This document shows positions 8,948 to 42,539 of a stretch of DNA of 64,000 bases, piece by piece. Origin of the DNA: Streptomyces sp. NBC_01497 (GTDB lineage: Bacteria > Actinomycetota > Actinomycetes > Streptomycetales > Streptomycetaceae); NCBI RefSeq assembly GCF_036250695.1, contig NZ_CP109427.1:1860001-1924000 (forward strand), in the 5' to 3' direction. Positions within the stretch are counted from its first letter, which is position 1. Each line of letters begins with the position of its first letter. The translations under genes were made by a program, and so were the position numbers. The notes under the pieces were generated by a model. The model was not told the DNA's origin. It did not search any database and saw only the letters and a program-made list of their open reading frames with translations.

Positions 8948-10063
8948 TCAGGGTGTGTCCGGGGCGGCCAGGTCGAAGTCCGCCCGGTCCGATTCCCTCC
9001 CGTTGATCTGCAGGGAGATCGCATGCCGACCGGGGTGGTAGCGGCGTGTCGTGAGCAACCGGAACGAGTGCTCACGCGTCACCTGGATCACTTCGTCCGG
9101 CCCCAGGGTGCGGGTGGTGAGTTTGAAGGTCTTGCCGGTCCGGCCGCCGTTGGCCTTGCGGTGGTGCACGATGTAGTCGATCGCGAGCCGCGCCGGCTGA
9201 TCACCCGTGTTGCGGATCGAGGCGCTGAAGCGGACGCTGCCGCCGATCACGACGGTGTCCCTCTCCAGCCGGGGCCCGTCGACCTCCAGCGCGGCGGGGG
9301 CGAATCCGAGCAGTTCCAGGGCACCGGGGTGGCCGCGCTTGACGAGCGTGCGCAGCCCCTGCCGTACCAGGCGCTCGGTGGTGGCGTCGGGAGTCCCCAG
9401 CCAGCGGCGGGCCGTGCCGATCACGAGGTCCGGTTGGTCGCGGCTGAGGTCGTTGAGGTGGTTGGCGACGGAGCGCCGTACGTACTCGCTCTCGTCCCGG
9501 TAGAGGGCGTCCAGGATGGGGACGGTCCCTTCGGGACGAGCCAGGATGTCCGGCACCCGGACCGCCCACGGAAGGTAGGGGCGGGTGCCTTCGGAGGCGA
9601 GTCTGCGCACATGGGCGTCGGCTGATCCGGTCCAGTCGCCGGCGATGACACCGAGGGCCCGGTCGAGATCGTGCCGCAGCAGCGTCCTGATGGCGAACTC
9701 CGAGGACAGCCGGCCGGTGAGGCTCGCGAGCAGCTTCATCGCGTCGTCGAATGAGGCACCGTCGGCCTCCTGGACGGCCCGGGTGGCCAGGGCGCTGGTC
9801 ACCGGCCAGATGAGCCATCCGGTGAAATCCGGGGCGCCGTCGCGGGCGATGCGTACGGTCCGTGCCAGGGCCGCGTAGTCGCCCGGAAGATCGGCCAGCA
9901 GCGCGTCGCGCAACAGGTCGGCGCGCTCCCGCAGCGACAACGCGTCGAGATGTCCGGGCGCCGCGCGCAGCGCGGTGAGGTCGGCGTCCGGAGCGGCGGA
10001 CCGAATGGCGCGCGTGAGGCTCTGGACGGTGTGCTGACCGATGAGTTCGTCGGCGAACGGCAT
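8948..10063 (-). CDS. DNA alkylation repair (HEAT-repeat) family protein with C-terminal beta-sandwich
   Basis: A 371-residue protein. The first ~250 residues are helical HEAT-like repeats (for example EYVRRSVANHLNDLSRDQP, with the paired helices of the AlkC/AlkD superfamily). The last ~110 residues form a predicted beta-sandwich resembling a CARDB/Ig-type module (SVRFSASIRNTGDQPARLAI). AlkD-type proteins bind alkylated DNA and excise cationic lesions; catalytic residues cannot be confirmed here. ATG 10063 has AGGA upstream, which overlaps the stop of the preceding small gene. The two genes are therefore likely co-translated. Confidence 0.8.
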   Translation of the reverse strand: MPFADELIGQHTVQSLTRAIRSAAPDADLTALRAAPGHLDALSLRERADLLRDALLADLPGDYAALARTVRIARDGAPDFTGWLIWPVTSALATRAVQEADGASFDDAMKLLASLTGRLSSEFAIRTLLRHDLDRALGVIAGDWTGSADAHVRRLASEGTRPYLPWAVRVPDILARPEGTVPILDALYRDESEYVRRSVANHLNDLSRDQPDLVIGTARRWLGTPDATTERLVRQGLRTLVKRGHPGALELLGFAPAALEVDGPRLERDTVVIGGSVRFSASIRNTGDQPARLAIDYIVHHRKANGGRTGKTFKLTTRTLGPDEVIQVTREHSFRLLTTRRYHPGRHAISLQINGRESDRADFDLAAPDTP

Positions 10064-25829: not shown

Positions 25830-26024
25830 TCACTTCAGGGAGTCGAGGATCTCCGCGTCGCTGTCCAAAAGCTCGGCCAGGACGTCATCGACCTTCAGCT
25901 CGGCACGGTTCTGGGCGTCGCGGATTGCCTCGATGGCGAGCTCCTGCTTGCTGCGGTGCTCGCGACGAGCACGCTCGGTGAGCTTGGCGTCAAGGTCGTC
26001 AGGGAGTCGGAGTGTCATCGCCAT
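25830..26024 (-). CDS. Ribbon-helix-helix (CopG/Arc-type) antitoxin-like protein, orphan
   Basis: A 64-residue protein. MTLRLPDDLDAKLTERARRE is the DNA-binding beta-strand and helix A of the RHH fold, then RSKQELAIEAIRDA is helix B. The acidic C-terminus VDDVLAELLDSDAEILDSLK is the toxin-neutralising type of tail. Such antitoxins usually precede a Doc/Fic or PIN toxin. Downstream on the same strand (25579-25829) I find no intact toxin frame. A GATACC-N5-GGTATC palindrome just upstream is a likely autoregulatory site. Confidence 0.8.
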   Translation of the reverse strand: MAMTLRLPDDLDAKLTERARREHRSKQELAIEAIRDAQNRAELKVDDVLAELLDSDAEILDSLK

Positions 26025-28335: not shown

Positions 28336-28849
28336 GTCCACGAATATTCCCCGATCCATGTGCCTCGGTTGAGCGTTCAGGACCATGGCGGGGCGGCGGA
28401 CGAGGGGCTTTCGGCAGCCAGGAGCGATGGTCGGCGTCCATCACATCACCGGAAGAGAGGGCAGCCCATCCGGCTTTCCCCCCGGACGAACCGATGGCCA
28501 CCCTCACGGCGGCACCTGTGGCCAACACCCCCACGTGCACTCGGGTTTTATCGGCTGGCCCAGGGCCCGAAGCAAGCGTCTTCCGAGCGTCAAGAACTCC
28601 GGACGAGTCCTGGGAAGCATTACCGGTGTGAGCGCCTCCCTCACGATGTCCTGGGCCTGGCAGCCTTCACGAGCCGATCCGGGGCTCGACCCGCTCCACG
28701 GAACGAGACAGGTCGACAAACCCACTCGGAACCAAGAATTCGCAGGTCACGCACCCTTCTCAGTAGGCACCAGAATCGCCACGCATTCCACGTGCGAAGT
28801 CATCAGGAAGGGGTCGAGAAACCCGCAGCATCACAACACCCGCTTGGTC
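28336..28849. other. Left boundary of the composite island
   Basis: There is no gene. It contains the decamer CGAGCGTCAA (28584-28593) and the most diverged copy of the methyltransferase 3' end (28743-28806). Confidence 0.6.
28743..28806 (-). repeat. Attachment-site-like copy C of the RNA methyltransferase 3' end
   Basis: This aligns without gaps to 40468-40531, the real gene end, and matches at about two thirds of 64 positions. On the minus strand it reads in frame LMTSHVECVAILVPTEKGA then stop, against PMTHHVECVAILEPVAKGR in the intact gene. Preservation of the protein end and stop rather than of the DNA suggests a displaced chromosomal gene end. Confidence 0.8.
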
Positions 28850-29326
28850 TCACGCTCCGTTCCGGGCCCCCAGCGGCAGAAGGAACCGGCTGGGCTCCCC
28901 GTTCCACAAGATGGTGAGCGCGTCCCTTGCCCTCGTCGCAGCGACGAACAGCAGTGAGCGCGCCCGTTGCAGTTCACGCCTGTGGCGCAGTTTGTCGGTG
29001 CGTTCCCAGGTATCCACGGCCGAGCGGGGAACCAGGCCCTCGGAGACGCTCGCGATGATCATGCGGTGATACTCCAGGCCCTTGAAGCGGTACATGGTGC
29101 CGATTGCGACGAACGACCCGTACACCGCCTTGAGGCTGTCCACTTCGAGCAGGAAGCGGGCCCTGCTGTCCTCGTCCAGCACCGACGGCTTGATCACCTT
29201 CACCGCGACGAGCTGCCCTGCCGGTGACTCTCCGAGGTAGACCTGCCCCATGCCCCCCGCACCGAGTCGGCACACGAGCGTGTAGACGCCGATGCTGACC
29301 GGATCGTCGTCCCTCAATGGCTCCAC
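28850..29326 (-). CDS. Chimeric ORF: Ser/Thr kinase N-lobe fused in frame to UvrD-helicase C-terminus
   Basis: A 158-residue ORF from GTG 29326. Residues 1-73 are the start of an actinobacterial serine/threonine protein kinase: the G-loop LGAGGMGQVYLG (21-32), the ATP-binding Lys in VAVKVIK, and the alphaC region ARFLLEVDSLKAVYG. From about residue 74 (near base 29107) it switches to the end of a UvrD-like SF1 helicase. There motif V is GTMYRFKGLEYHRMI and motif VI is RARSLLFVAATRARDAL. The kinase lacks its catalytic loop and C-lobe; the helicase lacks ATP-binding motifs. It is probably a deletion fusion of two cassette genes, though the frame and start are intact. Its stop lies 43 bp from copy C. 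Confidence 0.75.
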   Translation of the reverse strand: MEPLRDDDPVSIGVYTLVCRLGAGGMGQVYLGESPAGQLVAVKVIKPSVLDEDSRARFLLEVDSLKAVYGSFVAIGTMYRFKGLEYHRMIIASVSEGLVPRSAVDTWERTDKLRHRRELQRARSLLFVAATRARDALTILWNGEPSRFLLPLGARNGA

Positions 29327-29450
29327 GGCTTGCGGGCCCCCTGTGCGGCAATGATCTCTCGGTAACTCGCGCCTCGGCCCCCACCGGGGGCCTTCCCGCC
29401 CGGCACACGCACCGCGAGTGTACCGAGGCCGAGAACCACGGGCGCTCCGG

Positions 29451-32042
29451 TCAGACCGTCTCCCTCGCATCCCAGCGAGCCTTGAACCACTGCAGTGTCT
29501 CCAGCAGGGCCACCCGGTTCTGTTCGTCCTCCAGCACGGAGAGCCGGAATCCGGGCCGCAGTTCGAGTTTCCCCTGCGGCAGGGACACTCCTTCCAACTC
29601 GTTCATTCTGTCAAGTAGTTCAGCCCGCAAGCGACGCTCCACGAAGGGCTCACGCTTCGCGAGGTGCTGGAAGACGACCTCCCCCGTGCCACCGCGTCCG
29701 CTGCCCGGGTAGAGCACGATGGGCCAGATACCGGACCCCGGGCCGCCCGTGTTCCCGAGCATCAGGAAGACGCTGGTCATGACGCTGCCTGCGCCATGGC
29801 CGACCCAGCCCCCGAGTTCCTCCCAGCCGGAGAGCGTCTCACGGACGGCCTTCACGGTCGCAGGTGTGTCGTCCGCCGCGAGCTGACGGAGGAACCTCTC
29901 GGCGCGCGTCTCCAGGTCCGGTCGTTCCGTGTTCTCCCAAGCGGACTGCTCCGTGGCGCGCTCACCGTCCTGCTGATCCTCGGCATCCGCCATGAGCAGC
30001 GCCAGGTCGCCGCTGGTGAGTCGCTGGTCCGGGTCCGCCGCGCCGGTGGCGATGAAGCGGATACCATCGGCGGCCAGCCGGGCGCGTACCTCACCGCGAT
30101 CCTCGCCGGTCCATCGGAATCCGTCGGCCACCCTCCCATCGGCGTTCAGAACCCTGTAGGCATTGGCCACTCCGTCGGTCTTCGCCAGGTGTGTGCCCAC
30201 GGCCTGAGGTCCGGAACCGACGAAGGACGCCATTTCTCCGTACGACGTCCAGGTGCCGTGGGGCAGTGCGGCGAGCACCTGATGGGCTCGACTCCAGTCG
30301 CGGCTGCGCTCGGCACGTCCCGCACCACCGACGGGGGCCGGCCAGAGCCGGATGGCGCGATCCGCGAGATCGTCGGCCCGAGCGAGGATCTCCGGGCGCC
30401 CCCAGCGTTCCGTCTGGGCGATGCGTCGGTTCATCTCCAGGTGGCTGCCCTGGAGCAGCCCCTGCTTCCGCTCGAAGGGATGGTTGGACAACTCAGCGTT
30501 CACGCTCGTCAGGGTCAGGTTGCCGAGTGTGTGCTTAAGGCCGGAGTGCAGGTCCTCCGCAGTTTCCCCCGCAGCCACGTCACCTTCCAGCATCGCCCTC
30601 CACTCGTCACCGGGCGACTGCGGCATCACATGCTCGATCGTCAACTGCGCCGTGCCGAAGTCCACCGGCTCCGGATGCTCATAACTCTCCTCCAGACGCT
30701 GAAGAATGAGTCTGCGCTGGTTCGGCCGACCGCACTGGTAGAACGGCGCGGCGCGGACCTGCTCACGCAGCTCCTCGTCACCAGGCCAGTGCCGGTTGTC
30801 GGCGGACAACAGTTGTCGCAGACCGTCAGCAGCCGGCACATCGTGTGGAAGCTGGGCCGGCACGGCTTGGAAGATCCGGTTGAGGTTGTTCGTCGCCACC
30901 CGGCAGAGCATCCTGCGCACCAGGAAGCTCTCGATGTACGACAAGGCGCACGCGGTCTCCTCATCGTCCAGTTCGCCCCTCGCCCGCCGGTCGAGCAACA
31001 GCATCACCGCCGGATACGTCACCACGGCCTGCCAGTCGTGCAGCCGGCGCAGATGGCCACGTACGGCGGGAACGCTCTCCTCGTCAGGGTGGATCACCTT
31101 GCGGAAGTACGTGCTGCGCCGGTGCAGTTCCTTGACGTAGTCCTCGATGTCCGCCTCGGTCGGCGCCCCGCCGGATGCACCGCCCTCGAAATGTCTCTGC
31201 TGGGCGGTGTACAAGTCCTGCCTGCGGACCCGATCGTCTCCGTCGAGCACCAACTGCAGCCACATCAGTTGTTCGAGCTCGTCGTTGGCCAGGCTGTCCT
31301 GCAAGGGGAGCCAGTACGTCTCGTAGACCCGCTCACCGCGCGTCGGCAGGCGCATGAACAGGTAATTGCGCAGTAGATCCGCCTGGCTGAGTTTGAGCCC
31401 GGTGTTGTTGAGGGATTCGAAGATGCGATGCACGTTGTCACCGCGCTCGGCGGTCACCACGACCAAGGTGAGCCGCGAGGTGATCGCCTGCTCGATGCGC
31501 AGAACGTCCGGCGCGCTCGCCGATCCTCCCGCCTCGACCAGTTTGCGATTGAAGAAACTGTATGCCGAGGCGACCCTGTCCCCCGCCGCTTGGTCGGGTA
31601 CGACGCAGCGGATTCGGGCGGCGAACTGTCCCCTGTCAGCCTGGGTCGGCAGCAGCCGGAGGTAATCTCCGCCGTTCTTGCGCTTGTTGATGAGGTACTC
31701 CTCACCGATACGCTCGGCCTCGTCCGGCATGTCTTCAGCGATGTGGTCTCGAATGGCCGCCAGCGCGAGAGACAGGGTGGTCAGCCGCTGCTGCCCGTCG
31801 ACCACGAGCCAGCGGGGAAACGTCGCCTCGTTCTGCGGCGAAGGTGCGAGCACGACCGAACCCAGGAAGTGCGTGCTCGCCGACGCATCGGAATCCAGCA
31901 GATCAGCCTGTTCCAGGATATCGTCCCACAGTTGGGCCAACTGCCGGTCCGTCCAGGAGTACGTCCGCTGATAGAGCGGGATCTGGAACTGCTGGGTCCG
32001 GCCCTGCATCAGATCGGCGAACACGGTCTCTTTGGCCTGCAC
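29451..32042 (-). CDS. DUF262-DUF1524-alkyltransferase-like fusion, putative modification-dependent nuclease
   Basis: An 863-residue multidomain protein. DUF262 (about 1-240) has IPLYQRTYSW (21-30) and the nucleotide-binding VDGQQRLTTL (81-90). DUF1524, the His-Me-finger nuclease part, has TIEHVMPQ (468-475) and HTLGNLTL (504-511). This pair defines GmrSD-type type IV restriction enzymes and SspE. Residues ~585-645 match the DNA-binding domain of alkyltransferase-like proteins (LPHGTWTSYGEMASFVGSG, QAVGTHLA, YRVLNADGRVADGFRW). The PCHR active site is NAYR, so there is no acceptor cysteine. Residues ~700-863 are an unassigned domain. GTG 32042 has GGGGGAG six nt upstream. It may recognise modified bases and cut phage DNA. 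Confidence 0.88.
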   Translation of the reverse strand: MQAKETVFADLMQGRTQQFQIPLYQRTYSWTDRQLAQLWDDILEQADLLDSDASASTHFLGSVVLAPSPQNEATFPRWLVVDGQQRLTTLSLALAAIRDHIAEDMPDEAERIGEEYLINKRKNGGDYLRLLPTQADRGQFAARIRCVVPDQAAGDRVASAYSFFNRKLVEAGGSASAPDVLRIEQAITSRLTLVVVTAERGDNVHRIFESLNNTGLKLSQADLLRNYLFMRLPTRGERVYETYWLPLQDSLANDELEQLMWLQLVLDGDDRVRRQDLYTAQQRHFEGGASGGAPTEADIEDYVKELHRRSTYFRKVIHPDEESVPAVRGHLRRLHDWQAVVTYPAVMLLLDRRARGELDDEETACALSYIESFLVRRMLCRVATNNLNRIFQAVPAQLPHDVPAADGLRQLLSADNRHWPGDEELREQVRAAPFYQCGRPNQRRLILQRLEESYEHPEPVDFGTAQLTIEHVMPQSPGDEWRAMLEGDVAAGETAEDLHSGLKHTLGNLTLTSVNAELSNHPFERKQGLLQGSHLEMNRRIAQTERWGRPEILARADDLADRAIRLWPAPVGGAGRAERSRDWSRAHQVLAALPHGTWTSYGEMASFVGSGPQAVGTHLAKTDGVANAYRVLNADGRVADGFRWTGEDRGEVRARLAADGIRFIATGAADPDQRLTSGDLALLMADAEDQQDGERATEQSAWENTERPDLETRAERFLRQLAADDTPATVKAVRETLSGWEELGGWVGHGAGSVMTSVFLMLGNTGGPGSGIWPIVLYPGSGRGGTGEVVFQHLAKREPFVERRLRAELLDRMNELEGVSLPQGKLELRPGFRLSVLEDEQNRVALLETLQWFKARWDARETV

Positions 32043-32469
32043 TAATACTCCCCCCGCGGAAGCCCTCCGGGCCCGGAACGGCCCTTGCGCGACTGATCAC
32101 GATAGGGCCTCCCCCAGGCTGCCGCCCACCCTTCAGTCGCACCCGAAGTGCCAGAAGAAAATAAGCCGTCCTCGCACGCCTTCCGACACCGGATCTTTCG
32201 GTAGCTACCTGATCCTCATTCGAATACCCATGCAAGAGGCGTTACTTGCCATCGACGGCCACGCTGCCGACCGAGTCGGTCCACTCAGCAGGATCCGTCC
32301 CAGTTTTCTACGCCCAGAAGGCGTACAGGATGCCCCCATGTTGAACCCGGCCGCAGCCGGACTCGGCAACACCCCCCACCCACGCCGAACGGGAGGTCTC
32401 GCGGGGCGGTATCGAAGCGCCCATGCGCACTTGCATGCGCCCGCACCCGCGTTCGTACCGTACCGAGCT
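32043..32469. promoter_or_regulatory. Divergent promoter region of the putative defence pair
   Basis: 427 bp between the two divergent genes. TTGCAT (32431-32436) and TACCGT (32456-32461) with a 19-bp spacer lie 8 nt before the ATG at 32470, which fits a leaderless transcript. Nothing else stands out. Confidence 0.45.
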
Positions 32470-33843
32470 ATGTCAGCATCTGCGGAAGAGGTACTCGACC
32501 GGCTCAGCAGCAAGGTCCCCGTCCACGTCAACTCCACCGCCACCCTGGTCTCGGACATGGCCAAGGCGGCCACGGCCAGCGATCGACGGCGCGCTCGGAA
32601 ACAGACCGACAGAGAGCCGAGTCCCCGCAAGCGCGGACTCGGCCCCTTCGAGAGCGACGACCGGCGGGACCTCGTCGCCGCCCCCTGGGATCTGCTGGGC
32701 GTCTTCGCTCGGGCGACCACCCTCGCCCGTCAGGGACGCGGCCGAGGATTGGCGGAACACTGGCAGGGACTGAAGTACTGCCAGGCCCTGGGCACCAGTG
32801 CGAGCGGCCACCTGGCCCTCACCGACGAAGGCCAGAGTCCGGAACTCTCCTACCGAGCCATGCAGGCACGGGAATTGGGACGGGCATTCGGACTCGCCGT
32901 CGCGGAACGTACCGTGCGCAACCGCTACCCCACTCACATGGTCTCCGTCCTGGACGCGGAGGCGTTACTCCTGGCCGGCTTCGCCCGCTCCGGCCCACGG
33001 CCGTCCCTGGGCGCTCGACCACGACCCGACTTCTTCATCGAGGCCTGGCGGCCGGGTGAGCCGTCCCACGTCTTCGTGGTGACCGTCAACGGCAACCACC
33101 AGATCGCCAAGCAGCGCACCGCAAAGGCCGACCGCTCGTCGTTCAAACAGCTCGCCAGAGGCAGCGAACGTGCCGAGGCCTTCCACCTCGTGGACTGGAA
33201 CACCACGCCCAGCCTCCTGATGGCGACCGAGCTGCTCGCGGGGGACGGCATCACCGTCCACGCCCTGCAGGGGCCGGGTGACGGGCTGATACCCACACGC
33301 TCGGCCGAAGGCCGCGGCAGCGCCGACGCCGTACTGTCCGAGCGGAACCTCACGTACGCCGGGGCGGTGGCGGTACCCGCCTCCGAAGGCCGGAGGGAAC
33401 GGATCCAGGACGGGTTCCTCATCCCACGCAAAGACCTGGGCTGGTACGGCCGGCTCCTCGTCCGCACGGGAGCAGCTGGCCAGCTCGCGTTCGCCGGAGC
33501 GGGCACCGAGATCGCCCAGTACCTGACCGACAAACAGGGCCACAAGCATTACCAGCAGCAGATGTTCGCCGGCTCCTCCACGGTCCGGGACGCCTCACAC
33601 AAGATCGGTTCGACGACGTACGTCGGCACCGATCAGGTGTTCCGCCTCAACCGGACGCGTGTCGAGGCGTTCTCCGGAATCACCGAGGACCTGTACGAAC
33701 TCCTGGTCAGGGGGCGGGTCGAGGAGTGCCGCGTCCGGATGTACGACCAGCGCGACAGCTACTCGTCCAGCACCACCGCTCCCCGGTGGGGCCCGGTGTC
33801 CTTCCGCGACGACGGCTCCGTGATGGCACTGCGCGTCCTGTAG
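32470..33843 (+). CDS. Protein of unknown family, divergent partner of the DUF262 fusion
   Basis: A 457-residue cytosolic protein without signal or membrane segments. I do not recognise a family. Residues 1-70 are basic (SDRRRARKQTDREPSPRKRG). A conserved-looking block follows (LVAAPWDLLGVFARATTLAR, LAEHWQGLKYCQALG). Residues 185-210 (RPDFFIEAWRP, then VFVVTVNGNHQ) recall the strand pair of PD-(D/E)xK nucleases, but the Glu-x-Lys is not there. Codon 166 (32965-32967) is TTA, so translation needs the bldA leucyl-tRNA. ATG 32470 may be leaderless; ATG 32338 would add 44 residues. It lies inside the island and shares a promoter region with the DUF262 fusion. Confidence 0.8.
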   Translation: MSASAEEVLDRLSSKVPVHVNSTATLVSDMAKAATASDRRRARKQTDREPSPRKRGLGPFESDDRRDLVAAPWDLLGVFARATTLARQGRGRGLAEHWQGLKYCQALGTSASGHLALTDEGQSPELSYRAMQARELGRAFGLAVAERTVRNRYPTHMVSVLDAEALLLAGFARSGPRPSLGARPRPDFFIEAWRPGEPSHVFVVTVNGNHQIAKQRTAKADRSSFKQLARGSERAEAFHLVDWNTTPSLLMATELLAGDGITVHALQGPGDGLIPTRSAEGRGSADAVLSERNLTYAGAVAVPASEGRRERIQDGFLIPRKDLGWYGRLLVRTGAAGQLAFAGAGTEIAQYLTDKQGHKHYQQQMFAGSSTVRDASHKIGSTTYVGTDQVFRLNRTRVEAFSGITEDLYELLVRGRVEECRVRMYDQRDSYSSSTTAPRWGPVSFRDDGSVMALRVL

Positions 33844-33860
33844 GAGAAGGACTCACAGAT

Positions 33861-33878
33861 GCCTCCCGCCGGGGAGGC
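33861..33878 (+). terminator. Hairpin after the unknown island gene
   Basis: GCCTCCC / GGGAGGC, a 7-bp stem with a 4-nt loop, 17 nt after the stop codon. Confidence 0.55.
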
Positions 33879-34676
33879 TCGACGAGCAGTCACCTCGAAA
33901 CGGGTGCGCCTTGCCCTCAAGCTCACCTGGCACCCCAGCAGAACGAACGCCAAGCGAGCGTCAAGACCCCTCAGACAGCGTCATTTCGACATTGAGATGC
34001 CGCCGCGCCGTCTGCAACGTGCGGTCTGCACACCGGAAAACATCAGGTCAGCGACCCTTTGCGGCAGGCTCAAGGATCGCCACGCACTCCACGTGGTGCG
34101 TCATCGGAAAGATGTCAGCCTGGACGAGTCACGAAAAAGAACAGGTCAGAGGCGGTTTATCCGCCCGTTGTCGCGAGTGCGGGAGCTCCGAGCGTCAAAC
34201 GAGTGTCACGACCAACAATCCATCCTTGCGCTTCGCGGCAGATGAGGCCCGGCCGCCGCGTCCAACCCGTCTGCACGAGCTCGCTGCCGAGCATTCCGGA
34301 CGCAGCCTCATGCCCCGCGCCACTGCTGCGATGGACACAATAGGGCATGCCAGCCAGCCCATGGCACCCTCCACGCAGAGCTGACTGTCGGGCGAGGTCG
34401 CTGTCGACCTCGCGCTGTACCGGAAGAAGTTCCGGCGTCTGCTGGAATCGCTGAAGCGGGCACCGGGGCCACCCACGGCGGTCCGTCCTCGCGGACGGCC
34501 GGCGAGGACGTCGCTCGTGGGCGTGCGCGGCGGAGGCGCGGGCGTGCCGGAAGGCGAGGACGGTCCGGATCGCGGTCACGGAGAACGGGGCCCGGCGAGG
34601 CGGGGCCCGTCCCGCGACCGCGTCACGGACCGGCCTGTGCGGCGGATCGCGTCGAGACGGGTACGCCGCGGGGTTC
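33879..34676. other. Internal junction of the composite island
   Basis: It holds copy B of the methyltransferase end (34044-34107), two CGAGCGTCAA decamers (33955 and 34189) and a small hairpin GGCGG-TTTAT-CCGCC (34151-34165). Beyond 34380 a short plus frame (ALYRKKFRRLLESLKRAP) has coding flavour but neither start nor family. No gene is called. Confidence 0.55.
34044..34107 (-). repeat. Attachment-site-like copy B of the RNA methyltransferase 3' end
   Basis: Ungapped to 40468-40531 with 59 of 64 identical bases. The minus strand reads DIFPMTHHVECVAILEPAAK, then GR and stop, in the same frame as the intact gene. Upstream codons (LVQA) still resemble the gene for a few residues before similarity ends. 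Confidence 0.9.
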
Positions 34677-35396
34677 CTACGAGAAGCTGACGTGGTCGAG
34701 GTCGACGGAGACGAGAAGCGGTTCCTCGTTGACACTGCCATCGGGGTTGGCGGAGTGGACCCGGCGCCGCGTCGGAACCATGATGCCGTCGAACTCCCGG
34801 TACTCGGAGGGGTAGTGGGCGGCTGGCCCGCCCTTGATGATCTCGGCTTCGTAGTCGTGCCGGCGCAGCAGCCCGTCGTCCCCGATGTAGAGGACCTGCT
34901 CGGCGTTGTGCGTGTGGATCGACTCGGGGAAGGTCACCTTGAGCCGCTCCCAGGTCTCGCCGTTCTCCTTCCAGGGACCCAGCTCCTCGGTGGTGAAGCC
35001 CTCGGTGGTGAAGGAGAAGGGTGCGGTGAGGTACGTCCACATGGCGTAGCCGGCGAAATACGCCAGCTGAAGACGGTCCCAGTGGGTTTCCAGTGTGTGT
35101 GCGGAGAACGAGTCACGCGGGTGGTGCCGTTCCTCGATGACGTTGCCCTCCGCGTCGGTGATGGCGATGTGGTCGCCGCTGAAGTCTGAACGGGTACCCG
35201 GTGTGCCGACCGGGGAGTGGCTCGTGTGCTGCCGATGCAGGTCGACGGTCACGGTCACGTCGCTGAGGGTGTCGGGCTGACCCTTGAGGGCCCAGGTGAT
35301 TCCCCCGTTGAGCAGGTGCGCTCGCACGGTGGAGAGTTCGTTCCACCGCGCCAGTCCGCCGTGTGCCGCGACCGTCCGGTCGATAAGGGACGTCAT
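34677..35396 (-). CDS. Uncharacterised protein, possibly LolA-like fold
   Basis: A 239-residue protein starting MTSLIDRTVAAHGGLARWNE. It is rich in beta strands with conserved-looking DVTVTVDLHRQHTSH, GWTYL-like aromatic patches (AMWTYLTAPFSFTTEGF), VLYIGDDGLLRRHDYEAEII and PTRRRVH. The alternating strands and the DGLLRRHDY turn resemble outer-membrane-lipoprotein-sorting-type beta folds, but I cannot name a family. There is no signal peptide. It precedes nothing on its strand except the island junction and lies downstream of the alpha/beta hydrolase gene, possibly in one transcript with a 282-bp gap. Confidence 0.7.
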   Translation of the reverse strand: MTSLIDRTVAAHGGLARWNELSTVRAHLLNGGITWALKGQPDTLSDVTVTVDLHRQHTSHSPVGTPGTRSDFSGDHIAITDAEGNVIEERHHPRDSFSAHTLETHWDRLQLAYFAGYAMWTYLTAPFSFTTEGFTTEELGPWKENGETWERLKVTFPESIHTHNAEQVLYIGDDGLLRRHDYEAEIIKGGPAAHYPSEYREFDGIMVPTRRRVHSANPDGSVNEEPLLVSVDLDHVSFS

Positions 35397-35678
35397 GATG
35401 TGTTTCCTCGGTTCTTGTGATGTCGCACGTGTGCGGAGGTGGAGGGCGCCCGGCCGGGCGCCGTTGCGAAGCGGGGCGCGGCGTGAGCATCGGCAAACCA
35501 GGGGCGTCCTGTTCCTGCCGATCCGCTACCGGGGCCACCGTCCGCCGGAGAGCAAACCGGACGCCGACTGCCGGATGCCGATCGGCGACCGCCTGACGAT
35601 GAACGCCGGCCCCGGGCAGCGGTGGAGATGACCGGCCGGTCCGCCGCGTACACCGGGCGGCCGGGGCGGCCCCGCATG

Positions 35679-36512
35679 TCAGCCGCGGAGGAAGTCGAGT
35701 GCTTGCTGAACGAAGAGGCCGTGGTACTGGAAGATGCCGCCGTGGCCGGAGTTCGGGTAGACGGAAAGCCGGGCGTTGGGCAGCAGCCGAGCGAGGTGCA
35801 GGGTGCCGGTGGTCGGCCACATCGTGTCGTGGTCACCGTTGACCACGAGGACGGGCTGTTCCACGGTCGCCAGCGCGGACGGCGACGTTCCCTGTTCCCA
35901 CGTGGTGAGCGCGGTCAGCTGGGCACCGACGGCCTCGTCGGAGATCGGCGCGTCGCGGTCCTCCGTGCGCGCCTCCAGGCGCGCGAGGAAGGCGTCCGCG
36001 GCTTCCTGGCCGGCGGGGGTCGGTTCGAAGAACAGGAAATGCTTGGGGTGCATGCCCTCGGCCGTCGCCTTCTGTATCGCGGCCTGGAGCACCGCGCCGG
36101 TGGCGGCGGGCCCCTGGTCGCCGGCGGGTGTGGTCGCGGCCAGGATCATGCGCCGGACCAGGCCCGGATGCTGCTGGGCGATCACCTGGGCCACGATTCC
36201 TCCCAGGGAGTAACCGAGCAGGTCGACGGTGTCGAGGCGCAGGGCTGCGAGAAACGCCACGGCATCCTCGGCCATGGCTTCGAAGTTGTCGGGCGCGGTG
36301 CCGCCGGAACCCCCGATGCCGCGCAGATCGACCAGGATGACGCGCCGCTCGGCCGCCAGCCCGTCGACGACGGCGGGGTCCCAGTCGTCCAGGACCGCGG
36401 TGACGTGGTGCAGGAGTACCAGGGGGACACCCCCGGGCGTGCCCACTTCCCGGTAGGCGAACGGCACCCCTGAGACGTCCACGGTCTTGGTGACGGCGCT
36501 TGTTGCAGACAT
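35679..36512 (-). CDS. Alpha/beta hydrolase
   Basis: A 277-residue hydrolase. The oxyanion region is VLLHHVTAVLDDWDP, the nucleophile elbow is LGYSLGGIVAQ, the acid is probably in VVNGDHDTMWPT, and the histidine in YPNSGHGGIFQ. The HHV sequence after the first strand replaces the usual HG and recalls haloperoxidase/esterase variants. ATG 36512 follows a GAGAAGAG; the frame extends 17 codons upstream. It is divergent from a TetR regulator, with palindromes ATAAC-N4-GTTAT and CGTTA-N2-TAACG between them. Confidence 0.92.
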   Translation of the reverse strand: MSATSAVTKTVDVSGVPFAYREVGTPGGVPLVLLHHVTAVLDDWDPAVVDGLAAERRVILVDLRGIGGSGGTAPDNFEAMAEDAVAFLAALRLDTVDLLGYSLGGIVAQVIAQQHPGLVRRMILAATTPAGDQGPAATGAVLQAAIQKATAEGMHPKHFLFFEPTPAGQEAADAFLARLEARTEDRDAPISDEAVGAQLTALTTWEQGTSPSALATVEQPVLVVNGDHDTMWPTTGTLHLARLLPNARLSVYPNSGHGGIFQYHGLFVQQALDFLRG

Positions 36513-36566
36513 GGTTTGACTCTTCTCTCGCGCTTCTCGCCTGTGGCGATGTCCGACGCTCATAGA

Positions 36567-36586
36567 ATAACAGTCGTTATGTAACG
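36567..36586. promoter_or_regulatory. TetR operator between hydrolase and TetR genes
   Basis: ATAAC-AGTC-GTTAT (36567-36580) overlaps CGTTA-TG-TAACG (36575-36586). This is an AT-rich island in otherwise GC-rich DNA, in the divergent promoter. Confidence 0.65.
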
Positions 36587-36641
36587 AGCGCTACTCTATA
36601 AGGTGGGGAAGGAACGGGAAGCGCCGACGAAGGGATCTGGG

Positions 36642-37223
36642 ATGCGGTACTCCAAGGGGCACAAGGAGAAGGCCAAGGCCGCGATCCTGACGGAGGCCTC
36701 TCGCTCACTGAAGGAGAACGGCTTCCACGGCGTCGGGGTCGACGCGCTGGCCTCCGCCGCCAAGGTCACCTCGGGGGCCCTCTACTCGAACTTCGCCAAC
36801 AAGGAGGCACTGTTCGAAGAGGTCGTCTCCACGCAGCTCGGTCTCGAGTTCGCCGGTCTCGCTGACACCGAGCCGACGGAGCGCCGGCGCCTGCTCGGCG
36901 AGATACTCCGTCTTTACCTCAGCGACCTGCACCGCAAGGACCCTGCCAACGGATGCGTGATGCCCTCGCTCAGCTCCGACGTGGCGCGGTCGGGCGACTC
37001 GGTCCGTGACGCGTACCGGCGCCAGGTGTCGGATCTGGTCGCGGTCCTGGCCCCGGCGTTGCCGGGCGCGCCGCACGAGCAGGAGGCCGCGGCCTGGTCC
37101 CTGGTCGCCTCGATCGTGGGTGCGATCACCGTCGCGCGCGCACTGCCGGCGGGCGCTCCCGCACAGGCGGTTCTCGACGCCACGCTGGAGACGGCCATGC
37201 GGACGATCGCGGAGGAGCGCTGA
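36642..37223 (+). CDS. TetR-family transcriptional regulator
   Basis: A 193-residue regulator. HTH: KAAILTEASRSLKENGFHGV, GVDALASAAKVTSGALYSNF, ANKEALFEE. The effector domain contains GCVMPSLSSDVARSGDSVR, the TetR_C pattern of regulators linked to detoxifying hydrolases. ATG 36642 has AAGGGA upstream; GTG 36603 is an in-frame alternative. It is divergent from the alpha/beta hydrolase and is its likely repressor. Confidence 0.92.
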   Translation: MRYSKGHKEKAKAAILTEASRSLKENGFHGVGVDALASAAKVTSGALYSNFANKEALFEEVVSTQLGLEFAGLADTEPTERRRLLGEILRLYLSDLHRKDPANGCVMPSLSSDVARSGDSVRDAYRRQVSDLVAVLAPALPGAPHEQEAAAWSLVASIVGAITVARALPAGAPAQAVLDATLETAMRTIAEER

Positions 37224-37781
37224 TACCTCCCTCGAACCGGCGTCGGTGCCGGGGTCCGGCGCAGGCTGGGAGCGGCGCCGCGGCGGCCCCCCGGACGCGG
37301 AAGGGTGCTCCCCCGCCTGTCGGATGCGTCCGATTCCGCCGTCCTCGTGAGTCCGCGGTCCGCGGCCCTGCGGAAGGGCCCCTGGCCGGCCCGGCGGGAA
37401 TCACCTCGGCGCGTGAACGCCCGCCACGGGTACGGCCCGTCGGCCGCCGACGCCGCTCTGCCGTAGGTCGATCCGTCTGTTGACATGCCGCCGTTTCCGC
37501 CGTCCCACGAGAATCGAGGCCCGACCGCGCCGTCGCCGGAAGAGTCCGCAGAGCGGGACGCTGTGCGCTGACTCTGTTTCCTGCGGTGGCGTGCGCGGTA
37601 TCGATTGACTTTTCTAAGTCGACCGGTCATATTGAACCGGGAAAAGACGCGGTACGCAAGCGAGTTGACCAGCGGAGCGCCTGTCACGCTCCTGTGCTGG
37701 GGTCCGGCCCTGCGAACCCGCCCCGGGCGGGCCGCCGATCGGTTCGCCGGCGCGGCCGTGTCGTCCGGACGAGAGCAATGG
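37224..37781 (+). promoter_or_regulatory. Promoter region of the glycosyltransferase gene
   Basis: A 558-bp gene-free stretch. TTGACT (37605-37610) and CATATT (37628-37633) are separated by 17 bp. A GACTT-TTCT-AAGTC palindrome (37607-37620) covers the -35 and could be an operator. The leader would be about 140 nt. Confidence 0.55.
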
Positions 37782-39107
37782 ATGGAAATGACAAGGATCT
37801 TGATCGCGGCCACCCCGCTACGGGGACACGCCATGCCGCTGCTGCGGATAGCGGCGGATCTCGGCAGCAGGGGTCACGACGTCGTCGTGGTCACCGGGTC
37901 GCTGTTCCGCGAGAGCGTTGAGAACTCGGGACTCCGGTTCGTCGGCCTCCCCGGCATCGCGAACTACGACGTGGAGCGGCAGCAGCAGGTCATGGAGGGG
38001 CGAGCCCACATCGCGCCGGGGCCCGCACAGCTCGACTACGACTTCACGCACGCCTTCTACGAGCCGATTCCCGAACAGCACGCGACACTGCAGAGCGTCC
38101 TGGCGGAAGCGCCCGACGAACCGACGACGGTGATCACCGATCAGTCGTTCATGGGGCAGTGGCCCGTGCTGCTCGGCGCCGCGGGAATCGTGCCCGCGGC
38201 GACCATCGTGATCGGTGTGGTGCCGCTGCCGATGAACAGCGTCGACACGGCCCCCTTCGGTCTGGGGCTGCCGCCCGACGCGACAGAGGAGGGCCGCGCA
38301 CGCAACAAGGCGCAGAACGCCATGGTCGAGGAGATGTTCTCCGGCTCGACGGGCTTCCTGCGCGCGACGCTGGAGGGCCTGGGGGCCACGGAGTCCATCG
38401 GGTTCCCGATGGACGGGATCGTGAAGCTGCCCGATCGCTACCTGCAGTTGTCGGTCGGCGGCGTCGAATACCCCAGGAGTGACGCTCCCGGGGGGCTCAG
38501 GTTCGTCGGCTCGCTGCCCGCGGAGACGGCGGGGAGCCGCTCCCTGCCGGACTGGTGGGACGAGGTACTGACCGCTGACCGGGTCGTCGTCGTCACCCAG
38601 GGGACCCTCGCCAACCGGGACCTGAGCCTCCTGATCGAACCCGCGCTGCGCGCCCTGGCGGACCTCGACGCCCTCGTCGTCGTCACGACCGGGCGCGACG
38701 ACGACGAGGGCGTACCGAGGGATGTTCCCGCGAACGCCCGCATCGCGTCGTTCATCCCCTACGACGCCTTGCTCCCGCACGCGGACGTGCTGGTCACCAA
38801 CGGCGGGTACGGCGGCTCGCTCCAGGCCCTCGGCCACGGTGTGCCGCTGGTCATCGCCGGGGCCACCGAGGACAAGGTCGAGGTGGCGGCGCGTCTGGCC
38901 TGGACGGGCGCCGCCGTCAACCTCGCCACCGAAACCCCGGGGCAGGGGGAGATCGCGGCGGCTGTGCTGAAGGTGCTGGACGACGTGGCCTTCCGCGAGC
39001 ACGCGGGCAGGTTGCGGGAGGAGAGCCTGCGCCACGACGCGTTCGAGGAAGTGGCACGAACGGTCGAGGAACTCAACGCGTCCCGTCGGGGCGACCGCGC
39101 CCGGTAG
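37782..39107 (+). CDS. MGT-type (GT1) glycosyltransferase
   Basis: A 441-residue GT-B fold macrolide/UDP-glycosyltransferase-like enzyme. The N-terminal acceptor domain starts ILIAATPLRGHAMPLLRIAA. The C-terminal donor domain has VVVTQGTLANRDL and IASFIPYDALLPHADVLVTN, and then the GGYGGSLQALGHGVPLVIAG signature of the nucleotide-sugar site. It could glycosylate and inactivate macrolides or other aglycones. ATG 37782 versus 37788 is undecided. No biosynthetic genes are adjacent, so detoxification or resistance is more likely than natural-product assembly. Confidence 0.9.
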   Translation: MEMTRILIAATPLRGHAMPLLRIAADLGSRGHDVVVVTGSLFRESVENSGLRFVGLPGIANYDVERQQQVMEGRAHIAPGPAQLDYDFTHAFYEPIPEQHATLQSVLAEAPDEPTTVITDQSFMGQWPVLLGAAGIVPAATIVIGVVPLPMNSVDTAPFGLGLPPDATEEGRARNKAQNAMVEEMFSGSTGFLRATLEGLGATESIGFPMDGIVKLPDRYLQLSVGGVEYPRSDAPGGLRFVGSLPAETAGSRSLPDWWDEVLTADRVVVVTQGTLANRDLSLLIEPALRALADLDALVVVTTGRDDDEGVPRDVPANARIASFIPYDALLPHADVLVTNGGYGGSLQALGHGVPLVIAGATEDKVEVAARLAWTGAAVNLATETPGQGEIAAAVLKVLDDVAFREHAGRLREESLRHDAFEEVARTVEELNASRRGDRAR

Positions 39108-39365
39108 TCCGGGACGCCTCACGTGGGGGGCGAAGGGGCGCCGCGGTCGACTTCTCGACGAAGCGGCGCTGGTTGCCCGAGTCGTCCCGGGCGAGTTGTG
39201 GCCGGCGGGTACGGGACACGCGGCACCGGCCTGCCAGCCTGCCCGGCCTGCGCCGGACAGCCGTGCCGCACGAGGGCACCGGGCGGCCCGCCGCACCGGC
39301 GGGAGCAGGCCCCGTTCCTGCCCGCGCCTTGCCGCCCACGGCCCTCGCGCGGGGCCGGAGCGCCG

Positions 39366-39818
39366 GTGGGCACCGGCCGGATGCTGCTCCACGGCTTCTC
39401 CGGCGGCGGCCAGTTCGTACACCGCTTCGCCTACCTCCACCCGGACCGCCTCGCCGCCGTCTCCATAGGCGCCCCCGGCCGGGTCACCCGGATCAGCGAC
39501 GACATCCCCTGGTGGCTCGGCACCGCCGACCTCGTCGAGCGCTTCGGCACCCCGCTCGACCTGCCCGAACTCCGGGACACCCAGGTACTGATGGTGGTCG
39601 GCGCCAACGATGTGGAGACCTGGGAGATCGCCGAGCCCGGCCTCGACGCCGGCGGCGAGACCCGGGTGGACCGCCTCACCGCGCTGCACGACAACTTCAC
39701 CCGGCACGGTATCGGCGCCCGCCTGGAAATCGTGCCCGGCGTCGCCCACAACGGGATCGCTGTGATGCCCGTCGTCCAGCGATTCTTCTCCGACGTCCTG
39801 CACGGCACCCGCACCTGA
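39366..39818 (+). pseudogene. 5'-truncated alpha/beta hydrolase
   Basis: A 150-codon frame that begins inside a hydrolase: GRMLLHGFSGGGQFVHRFAY carries the nucleophile elbow, GANDVETWEI the acid region and VPGVAHNGIAV the histidine. The N-terminal half of the fold is missing. The upstream frame (39123-39365) is open but of low complexity. It is probably a remnant in the outer island. Confidence 0.65.
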
Positions 39819-40467
39819 CGGCGACCCCCGCACCCCGGTCCGGGCGCGCCTCGGCCGCCGACGGCGCCCGGTCCGGTCGCACCCGGGGTGCGCGGTGTCC
39901 AGTCAGGGCGTCGCGGCGCCTGACGTACCGGATGACGCCGACTTCCGCGGGCCCCGGGCCCGCGGTTGTCCGCTGCACGAACTTCCCGGATCGGGCGGGC
40001 CCGTGCGAGAGCGAGGCATCACGTGCACGAACTGCTCCCGACCTGCGCCTCGGCCTCTTTCAGCCTCCGCCGGACAGCGGGGTGAGAGGTGATTGTGTCG
40101 GAGGCCGGCCACTGATGGCGAGCCCGAGGCCGGCCTTCAGCAAGCCGAGACCCTCGGCAACCTACAGGTCACGAAGAGTGCGCCCCGCCGACGGGGCGCG
40201 CCCGAAACACACGTGTCACCAGCAGAGAAGAACCTGCTTGCACCCCGCTCGTGCGCCTCAGCAAGGCGGCCTGGTGAGGCAGAATTTCAAGCGATCTTGC
40301 GCCGCAGACCATGACGTCACATATCTCGACCAGCACTCCAATGTTGCCTGACGCCCCATCAGAACGAGCGTCAAATGAAGGTCACGATGCCTCGGAGAGC
40401 GTCATTCCAGCGTCAAGATATCGCCTGTAACGCGCATGGCGCACACCACGCGCACCCGCTAAAGCCA
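39819..40467. other. Right end of the composite island
   Basis: No gene is seen. It contains three GCGTCA motifs (40368, 40399, 40410), the first within CGAGCGTCAA (40365-40374), just outside the methyltransferase stop. Base composition is lower in GC than the flanking core. Confidence 0.5.
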
Positions 40468-40531
40468 CAGGTCAGCGGCCCTTTGCGACAGGTTCAAGGA
40501 TCGCGACGCACTCCACATGGTGCGTCATCGG
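40468..40531 (-). other. Intact attachment core, copy A, within the RNA methyltransferase 3' end
   Basis: The functional gene end, covering the last 19 sense codons and stop, which is repeated at 34044 and 28743. Elements entering here would restore the gene end, as elements do in tRNA genes. Confidence 0.75.
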
Positions 40532-41803
40532 GAACAGGTCGAAGACCCGGAGCATGCGGGGCTTGTAGCCGCCCTCCTTGAAGTACGCCAGGTCGCGGGC
40601 GAGGGCCGCCGGGTCGCAGGCGACGTACGCGATGCGGCGTGCGCCGAGTGTGACGAGGTGGGCCACCGTCTTGCGGCCGGCGCCCGCGCGGGGCGGGTCG
40701 AGGACGATCAGGTTCGTCTCCGTGATGCGCGTGCGCGGGAGGACCTGGTCGACCTTGCCGTGTTCGATGCGCACGCGCGGCATCTCGCGCAGGTTGTGCA
40801 CCGCGTCCTCGGCCGCGCGCTTGCCCGACTCGATGCCGAGGACGGCGCCGGTGTCGCCGACTCGTTCGGCGATGGCGCCCGCGAAGAGGCCGACACCGCA
40901 GTAGAGGTCGAGCGCCGTGTCGCCCTTGCGGGGCAGCAGGCCCTGCATCACCGCGTCCACCAGCATCTGCGGGGCCTCCGGGTGGACCTGCCAGAAGCCG
41001 CCCGCGCCGACCCGGTAGGTACGGCCGTCGGCCCGCTCGCGGACGAAGTCGCGGCCGTGCACCCGGTGCACTCCCCCGTCGTGCTCCTCGACGCGCAGCA
41101 CCGAGACGGGCTTGTCCAGTTCGACGAGCGGGAGCCTCCCGCCGGGGCGGGGGGTCAGGACGACCTGGCGGTCGGCGGAGCCCGTCGCGGCGATCGCCTC
41201 GACGGTCGCGATACCGGGCCATTCACGGCGTTCCACGCCGAGTTCGTCGACGCCCGGCGCGGCGATCATGCAGTGGTCCACGGGTTCGACGTCGTGGGAC
41301 CTGTGCTTGCGCAGGCCCGCGCGGCCGTCGTCGTCGATCGCGTACTGCAGGCGGGTGCGCCAGGCGGGCACCTCGCCCTGGGGCAGTTTGTCGCCGGGGG
41401 CGGGCATGACGGTGCCGTCCCAGCCCGCCTGTTCCGGTGTGAGACCGGCGAGGCGCTGCAGCTGCTCCGTGACGACCTCGCCCTTGAAGCGGCGCTGGGC
41501 GCCGGGCTTCGCGTGCTGCCAGTCGCAGCCGCCGCACCGGCCGGGCCCCGCGTAGGGGCACGGCGCCTCGACGCGGTCCTTGGACGCCTGAAGGATCTTC
41601 ACGGCGTCGGCACGCAGGAAGCGTGCGTCCGCGTCGCCCTCGGTGATCCGCGCGACGATCCGCTCGCCGGGCAGCGCGTGCCGTACGAACAGCACCCTGC
41701 CTTCCTCGGTCCTGGCGACGCAGTGGCCGCCGTGTGCCACCGGGCCCACCTCGACCTCGTACTCGTCCCCGACGGGTGAGGAGGCGTTCGTCTCGGTTGG
41801 CAT
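40472..41803 (-). CDS. RNA (uracil-5-)methyltransferase, RlmD/TrmA class
   Basis: A 443-residue class I SAM-dependent RNA methyltransferase. A TRAM domain (~10-65, VEVGPVAHGGHCVARTEEGR) is followed by an iron-sulfur cysteine motif CPYAGPGRCGGCDWQH. The SAM-binding core has DLYCGVGLFAGAIAE, VLDPPRAGAG, the nucleophile loop YVACDPAALARDL, and the C-terminal catalytic Glu in HHVEC. It forms 5-methyluridine in rRNA or tRNA. ATG 41803 has GGAG about 10 nt upstream. Its 3' end is the repeated island junction. Confidence 0.93.
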   Translation of the reverse strand: MPTETNASSPVGDEYEVEVGPVAHGGHCVARTEEGRVLFVRHALPGERIVARITEGDADARFLRADAVKILQASKDRVEAPCPYAGPGRCGGCDWQHAKPGAQRRFKGEVVTEQLQRLAGLTPEQAGWDGTVMPAPGDKLPQGEVPAWRTRLQYAIDDDGRAGLRKHRSHDVEPVDHCMIAAPGVDELGVERREWPGIATVEAIAATGSADRQVVLTPRPGGRLPLVELDKPVSVLRVEEHDGGVHRVHGRDFVRERADGRTYRVGAGGFWQVHPEAPQMLVDAVMQGLLPRKGDTALDLYCGVGLFAGAIAERVGDTGAVLGIESGKRAAEDAVHNLREMPRVRIEHGKVDQVLPRTRITETNLIVLDPPRAGAGRKTVAHLVTLGARRIAYVACDPAALARDLAYFKEGGYKPRMLRVFDLFPMTHHVECVAILEPVAKGR

Positions 41804-42009
41804 GAGGGGGTGACTCCAGGGGGTCGGGGAGGGGTGCGGGGCCGGGAGACATACGCGGCAGCGGTCCAGCTTACGTCCCACCGCACCCGGTCCTGTCCCA
41901 CCCTTCACGCCCACCGCCCGCTGGTCGGATCCCAGCGCCCCCTGGCCGGTCGGATCCCACCGCTCATGTCCCCGCGCCCTTGAGGTCGGGTGCTACCCGC
42001 CGTCCTCCG

Positions 42010-42113
42010 ATCGGTCCCGACGTTCGGTCGCGACGTTCGGTCCCGACGTTCGGTCCCGACGTTCGGTCCCGACGTTCGGTCCCGACGTTCGGTCCCGACG
42101 TTCGGTCGCGACG
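42010..42113. repeat. 13-bp tandem repeat, about eight units
   Basis: Units of TTCGGTCCCGACG, with GTCGCGAC variants as the second and last units, in head-to-tail array. Function unknown. Confidence 0.9.
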
Positions 42114-42539
42114 ATTCAGGGGTCCGGGACGGGGTCACGCGACCGGGACGGGGCCACGCGGCTGTGGGGACACACGACTGTGGAACACGGGGTCCGGGGA
42201 GGCGGGGTTATGCGTTCCGTCGGCATTTCTGATTCCCATGTGGTGCGTTTTCGCGATTCTCGCGATTCCGGCGATGCCGTTTCGAGGAGCCCGGGGTTTC
42301 CCGTCCGCCCAGGGGGTTTCCGCATTCCGGATTCGGCATTCCCGGCGGCTCGGGGAGCCGTGGCGGCATTGCGGGGCAGAGGTTACGCCGGGCGCTTACG
42401 GCCGCTCGCGCACGTGTAGCCTGGGTCCCGGCCCGGCCTGGGGCCAGACCGCCGATGACGTGCATCAGCCGTCCGACCAGGCACGATCTCCGAGGCTTCG
42501 GTCCTGCCACCCCGGCGATCGGGGCCCCCTGCCTCTGGT

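Follow-up and report, generated by a model that had tools for sequence, protein, structure and literature searches.

Accretion of integrative islands at a gene end, including CIME-like units, is a mechanism of known kind, and we compare the locus below with described systems on the basis of excerpts from their published accounts. The 674-kb conjugative virulence island PAISt of Streptomyces turgidiscabies integrates at the 3′ end of bacA by means of a tyrosine recombinase (PMC4057263). In Dehalococcoides, islands are arranged in tandem behind the single gene ssrA, an integration module being present in 16 of them and absent from 15 (PMC3146451), and Streptococcus CIMEs have kept their att sites, lost their recombination and transfer genes and undergo tandem accretion (PMC7563491). 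Streptococcal ICEs that target rumA use serine integrases, and their integration alters the frame of the rumA end (PMC4701971). Among the AICEs of Streptomyces, one resides in rlmN, decay leaves direct repeats and cargo, and accretion also occurs (PMC9513070). An earlier note on the DNA analysed here had treated a protein-coding target as unusual, which is contradicted by bacA, rumA and rlmN as documented targets.

The locus, in a 64-kb stretch of Streptomyces DNA (the window), lies at the end of rlmD. We consider it highly probable that a genus-wide family of small islands uses the rlmD 3′ end as its attB site and that two of them lie in tandem in the window. According to the excerpts, this architecture has already been shown by PAISt and by the Dehalococcoides ssrA islands. 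PAISt resembles the window in its Streptomyces host, tyrosine recombinase, protein-gene 3′ end and three gene-end copies that split a modular island, but differs in its 8-bp palindromic core and in an integrase that is present yet not recognised by Pfam; the rlmD islands are small and use another gene and another integrase family. The ssrA islands are likewise tandem and bounded by displaced gene ends, but have serine recombinases, an RNA gene as target and a host of another phylum. The rumA ICEs target the same enzyme family but, as excerpted, do not restore the gene end, unlike the islands here, while the AICEs share a 23S rRNA methyltransferase gene as target (rlmN) but carry traB and rep and use another gene and site. 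Pfam domains of traB and rep were not found among the selected window open reading frames (ORFs) scanned, and we found no description of rlmD as an integration target in Streptomyces, of its island family or of the integrase in the open-access literature.

The target gene, on the minus strand at 40472..41803, encodes the 23S rRNA m5U methyltransferase RlmD (RumA), with TRAM and tRNA_U5-meth_tr domains. Its product scored 207.8 bits against the NCBIfam model TIGR00479 (cut-off, 183.55), so that of the RlmD/TrmA class proposed in the earlier note RlmD stands and TrmA does not. RumA and SP_1029 are among its solved relatives, and its segment DLFPMTHHVE aligns with DLFPQTHHVE of SP_1029; we take the Glu of the HVE motif to be catalytic. 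Immediately upstream of rlmD, at 41995-42137, lies a 13-bp tandem repeat (CGTTCGGTCCCGA) in about eight copies.

The islands lie 3′ of rlmD. Repeat alignment, together with a survey of arm repeats, places the predicted att core on the gene side of the first island at the present gene end (copy A, 40468..40531), which recurs as the displaced end B (34044..34107) and as the most diverged displaced end, C (28743..28806), all on the minus strand. Identities were 59/64 nt between A and B, 43/64 (67%) between A and C and 48/64 between B and C, and a repeat search grouped the three as a single family of 89 nt. The minus-strand translations THHVECVAILEPVAKGR, THHVECVAILEPAAKGR and TSHVECVAILVPTEKGA, for A, B and C respectively, each run into a stop, and frame, HVEC and stop are kept throughout; the positions, the 59/64 identity of A and B, the roughly two-thirds identity of A and C and these features all reproduce what had been noticed from the letters alone. 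No tRNA gene was found in the 64-kb window, and a tRNA or tmRNA as target was rejected, none having been found.

Copies that are short and in frame might have been left by ordinary rlmD duplication or recombination, with no mobility involved. Upstream of the last codons, however, the displaced copies share element ends and not rlmD sequence, and this reading is further opposed by arms at fixed distances, linked integrases and cross-species element ends at the tail, all described below, which leave it extremely improbable.

A six-frame search with RlmD across 61 genomes returned the gene together with many short matches confined to its final 20-25 residues; some of these were not linked to the gene or lay on separate contigs, often of draft genomes. 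Run on 150 genomes of the genus, a degenerate 32-nt tail pattern (up to two mismatches) gave at least one match in 134 genomes and at least two in 75, the latter being an upper estimate for the pattern since some two-mismatch matches may not be att sites; the reversed pattern gave no match in any of the 150. Among the matches listed, 35 contigs carried two or more tails, with a single strand in 32 (hand count); the mixed-strand contigs (G161, G073 and G134) each had at least one two-mismatch match. Displaced tails therefore occur in many Streptomyces genomes.

The loci examined contain 100 distinct tails, of which 67 are displaced and 33 belong to intact genes. The displaced tails are open through codon 12 in all 67 cases, with HxE in 65, HVEC in 58 and the stop in place in 61. 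Departures from the majority at codon positions 1, 2 and 3 numbered 35, 18 and 220 in the 67 displaced tails versus 7, 4 and 129 in 35 genes. Displaced ends thus appear to be near functional gene ends, as would be expected if they were recent or reused after excision, while the greater share of changes at positions 1 and 2 suggests some relaxation. The predicted att site overlaps the conserved HVE codons and every element must therefore bring a working enzyme end, which would explain the in-frame displaced copies.

Alignment of the copies revealed two recurrent borders, a left end with GCGTTACRGGCGATATCTTGACGC right behind the stop codon in many genes and copies, and a right end with CTCGTTTGACGCTC that precedes many displaced copies. 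Among 112 genomes from the family's other genera, 13 also have the left-end motif (up to three mismatches). In the 300-nt flanks of the 100 tails, the 8-mer WTGACGCT was found upstream of 41 of the 67 displaced tails, nearly always at 90-109 nt, and upstream of 0 of the 33 intact genes; downstream, 47 of the 99 sites whose flanks were complete had it, in phased positions. Arms are located at about −92 and −103 upstream and, downstream, at about +113, +124 and +144 or at about +212 and +223. The background rate is 0.02 per 300 nt, and there was one reverse-strand match over all flanks. An exact upstream arm is missing from 26 of the 67 displaced tails; at least one of the 67, the armless second match in locus L066, is taken as spurious. 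In the window, seven of the nine WTGACGCT 8-mers are no more than 300 nt from one of the three copies, and all seven are on the strand of the gene: A is followed by three, B by two and C by one, while B is preceded by one and C by none. These repeats are probably arm-type integrase binding sites.

Tail-to-tail intervals were taken from stretches of up to about 20 kb, with loci fetched by integrase biased towards that gene. There were 17 complete intervals, 13 of them without an integrase (one of these, in L066, spurious), and ten had arms at both ends, including six without an integrase; no ratio of integrase-bearing to integrase-less units is claimed from these counts, given the fetch bias and the long intervals missed. 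Besides the A-B interval, the two-armed units without an integrase include one of 2.0 kb in G005 and, next to an integrase-bearing unit, one of 5.4 kb in S. griseofuscus. The smallest tail-to-tail interval observed was the G005 unit (L062, 1364-3331; 2.0 kb, both ends).

In relatives, a family of tyrosine integrases is encoded near displaced tails. Seven members were aligned, the other six being 69-92% identical to the first, and R187, H301, R304, H327 and Y336, presumably the catalytic residues, are invariant in all seven. A pattern-based scan of 84,980 species genomes yielded 54 integrase loci (64-94% identity), all titled Streptomyces bar one titled Actinobacteria bacterium. The examined DNA of 37 of the 54 loci contained an rlmD tail, always on the integrase strand, and that of 17 contained none. 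An xis-like HTH_17 gene was matched in 49 of the 54 loci and a second, short recombinase-like ORF in 24 (for example, L075, 8876-9505); the ten matches listed for each lay just upstream of the integrase. The type of arm tends to vary with the integrase group: by hand count, among the 24 main-group loci (at least 84% identity) the nearest tail downstream of the integrase carries TGACGCT in 23 and TGACGCA in none, while in the divergent group (69-75%) TGACGCA occurs in 5 of 8 and TGACGCT in 5 of 8, three of the latter without TGACGCA. A right end preceding an integrase in L071 has TGACGCA too. Together, tails in many genomes, phased arms and a linked integrase family uphold the rlmD end as an attachment site, as first suggested for the window. 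In S. ipomoeae, an integrase-bearing island carries a 1,403-aa TmtA-type defence gene (PADLOC) as cargo (L075, 13246-17457).

No integrase gene was found in the A-C interval, in agreement with the earlier note; a 92-aa antisense match there (28% identity, E = 0.004) is probably due to chance. Nor was a cognate integrase found in the window's own genome at E ≤ 1e-80, the best match to one member being 27% identical. At the same threshold, 19 of 150 genus genomes have the integrase, all of them also represented in the tail-pattern survey and 17 of them among its 75 multi-tail genomes (hand join), and 58 multi-tail genomes are without a detected cognate integrase. A large serine recombinase was rejected as agent, the own genome having no PF07508 match at E ≤ 0.001, as was a plasmid origin, with a top plasmid match of 42% identity and 1 of 313 matching records in the 60-80% band.

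The integrase matches phrog_1, a large phage-type tyrosine family, which would fit islands that were phage satellites or prophage remnants. This origin is nevertheless quite improbable: all 1,555 matching phage records are below 60% identity (34% for the top match), IMG/VR gave two relatives at 36% and 24%, and the PHROGs matched by eight cargo proteins of the window were all non-structural or of unknown function, with no packaging or phage-interference genes among them. Capsid, portal and terminase domains were likewise absent from the selected genes of four integrase-bearing elements that were searched with Pfam.

The first island of the window, element 1 (A-B, 34108..40467, 6.4 kb), has no integrase and both ends conserved. 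Its left end (40366..40467, minus strand) comprises GCGTTACAGGCGATATCTT at 40415-40433 and three arm repeats starting at 40367, 40398 and 40409 and, with the tail, shares 84-86% identity over 185-204 nt with the left ends present in integrase loci L085, L101 and L088. The right end (about 360-390 nt) is 67-69% identical to right ends of the integrase-bearing L052, L033 and L075 and 74% identical to one in L081, and contains an exact match to the right-end arm repeat CTCGTTTGACGCTC (34190..34203, minus strand) 92 nt before the B core. Gene-end direct repeats thus occupy both borders of A-B, with arm repeats on the element side, at fixed distance from the core.

Between these ends, cargo comprises a 150-aa ORF (39366..39818, plus strand; a possible esterase fragment, named from reading the ORF, with no family match), an EryCIII-like or macrolide-family glycosyltransferase (37833..39107, plus; family matches under the NCBIfam cut-offs), a TetR regulator (36642..37223, plus), an alpha/beta hydrolase (35679..36482, minus) and a 239-aa protein of no recognised family, without a match in family searches (34677..35396, minus). 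The hydrolase, regulator, glycosyltransferase and proteins of no known family make this a metabolic or resistance-type cargo. DNA relatives of the hydrolase gene (78-83%) occur in G069 (two places) and G164, where the pattern found no tail in 20-kb stretches. The second contig of the own genome carries a 71% DNA relative of the glycosyltransferase gene (C2:97221-98266). Near the right end, a broken reading frame (34349..34483, plus; 52% over 46 aligned residues, stop inside) is a relic of a gene whose neighbour, in the right end of some related elements, is an AbiEii-type toxin gene.

This relic and the homology of both ends to integrase-bearing elements suggest that element 1 descends from an integrase-bearing ancestor whose interior was replaced. 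That ancestor may have been an ICE or IME, as the definition of a CIME would require. Like a CIME, A-B has att sites and no recombination or transfer genes; in its integrase-bearing relatives no conjugation gene was seen, with FtsK/TraB positions compared in two of six loci (L088 and L100). G+C is 66.7% in C-B, 70.0% in B-A and about 70% in the flanks, and since the B-A value is so near that of the flanks, composition alone would miss A-B.

One could also suppose that a single composite island entered as a unit, with B an internal att site of an older accretion and A-C moving together, much as an internal third bacA 3′ end in PAISt, in the excerpted account, defines modules that excise jointly or separately (PMC4057263). 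B, however, has arms of both kinds around it, a right-end arm before and left-end arms after, so that A-B is bounded by itself, and A-B was found whole in none of 294 other genus genomes and in pieces in six (E ≤ 1e-60, two best stretches scored per genome). We therefore regard joint entry as unlikely and two separate islands as the better account. One of the matches in the A-B search (L137, genome G304) is to the right end alone. There, outside the loci fetched by rlmD, a right end, a tail and a left end occur in one stretch (9780-10050); the tail, which the pattern missed because of a 1-nt deletion, matches B at 47 of 54 positions and has right and left arms on its two sides. By its layout, this is another att-like junction.

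Element 2 (B-C, 28807..34043, 5.3 kb) also has no integrase and is an older, decayed unit. It has one recognisable end, the diverged left one, with two arm repeats (33957..33984, minus strand); its right end has decayed, the arm beside C being absent. The cargo consists of a 457-aa protein of no recognised family (32470..33843, plus; family searches without a match) and a GmrSD-like restriction enzyme with an MGMT-like DNA-binding domain (29451..32042, minus), identified by domain matches and probably a defence gene; in L058, a 44% relative that shares this fusion is found about 2.6 kb beyond a displaced tail. Beside C, a fusion relic combines a kinase-like start with a UvrD C-terminus (28850..29326, minus).

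While B holds as a displaced end, C need not be the original chromosomal end, as the earlier note had taken it to be, because the flank that follows it carries an arm repeat (28586..28593, minus; arm survey). The C tail and flank are 72% identical over 232 nt to the rlmD end of G014, a match that reaches an arm repeat, and the flank resembles both the left ends of elements in G005, G014 and G029 and the flanks of single-tail rlmD genes. Flanks of this type also occur behind the single-tail rlmD of G020, G026 and G034, some of them without exact arms. An RHH antitoxin-like gene (25830..26024, minus) has a relative in G014, where it lies about 265 nt past the rlmD stop and inside an element bounded by another tail; the distance from the shared C/G014 stretch to the gene is 2.5 kb in the window and 92 nt in G014. 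C may accordingly be read as the native chromosomal end or as the border of a third, older unit, and the island array may continue to its left.

The clean junction left of 28743 that the earlier note called for was not found: neither a left-flank DNA search, which gave mostly scattered paralogues, nor an all-against-all comparison of flanks produced a base-exact empty site for the window. Elsewhere in the genus, DNA past the distal tail in G007 matches DNA behind the single rlmD tail of G026 (87.6% over 7,850 bp), and that of G032 matches G026 in three blocks (82-91%), so that the islands sit between rlmD and this block. The correspondence is not base-exact: 9.7 kb separate the rlmD tail from the block in G026, against gaps of 2.3 kb after the distal tail in G007 and 3.2 kb in G032.

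An element common to S. iakyrus, S. diastatochromogenes, S. cyaneus and Streptomyces sp. B93 is 96.6-98.9% identical over 7.5-16.9 kb, and its match stops 41-68 nt downstream of the point where the tail pattern begins, which bounds the crossover without fixing it because tails are conserved in any case. In rlmD itself, B93 and G033 (whose contig is that of the S. diastatochromogenes locus) are only 85.8% identical, so that the element, with its far closer match, has probably moved between species. The earlier note's proposal that the gene end is remade by each insertion is supported.

In the account we favour, a minority of the islands encode, beside an HTH xis-like gene, a tyrosine integrase that would recombine a core within the HVEC-coding stretch, with WTGACGCT on both sides of the core as its probable arm-type sites. 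Each insertion would supply rlmD with a new functional last part and push the old gene end and the older islands outwards. A-B and B-C, which have no integrase or xis, would be cis- or trans-mobilizable derivatives and would therefore need an incoming integrase-bearing relative. Tail copies far from rlmD, at 7.319 Mb in the own genome and in G012, G013 and G015, are not accounted for by this explanation. The own-genome copy (C1:7319058; L031 and L138) is a further rlmD tail that has both a left end and arms; no right-end arm was present within about 20 kb downstream, and no origin was found for it.

The interest of the system lies in the breadth of the site across the genus and in the intact arm sites of units without an integrase. 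The tail of about 32 nt with its phased arms offers a marker for Streptomyces islands overlooked by integrase-led tools, the integrase, putative xis and att sites form a new set for genome engineering, and the family provides a testable example of integrase-less islands maintained in mobilizable form. In S. koyangensis SCSIO 5802, the abyssomicin cluster lies directly behind genes for TrkA, an amino acid permease and RlmD, there named abmN (PMC5819245). TrkA and the amino acid permease are the upstream neighbours of RlmD in the window as well, and by analogy the cluster may be another rlmD-docked island. More tentatively, and with the balance somewhat against it, rlmD could be a cargo dock shared across the genus, where most docked islands would have lost the integrase but not their intact arm sites and would form a pool of trans-mobilizable cassettes. 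If so, a minority of integrase-bearing members would shuffle defence, toxin-antitoxin and resistance-type genes, and perhaps whole biosynthetic clusters, and each insertion would rewrite the last codons of an rRNA-modifying enzyme.
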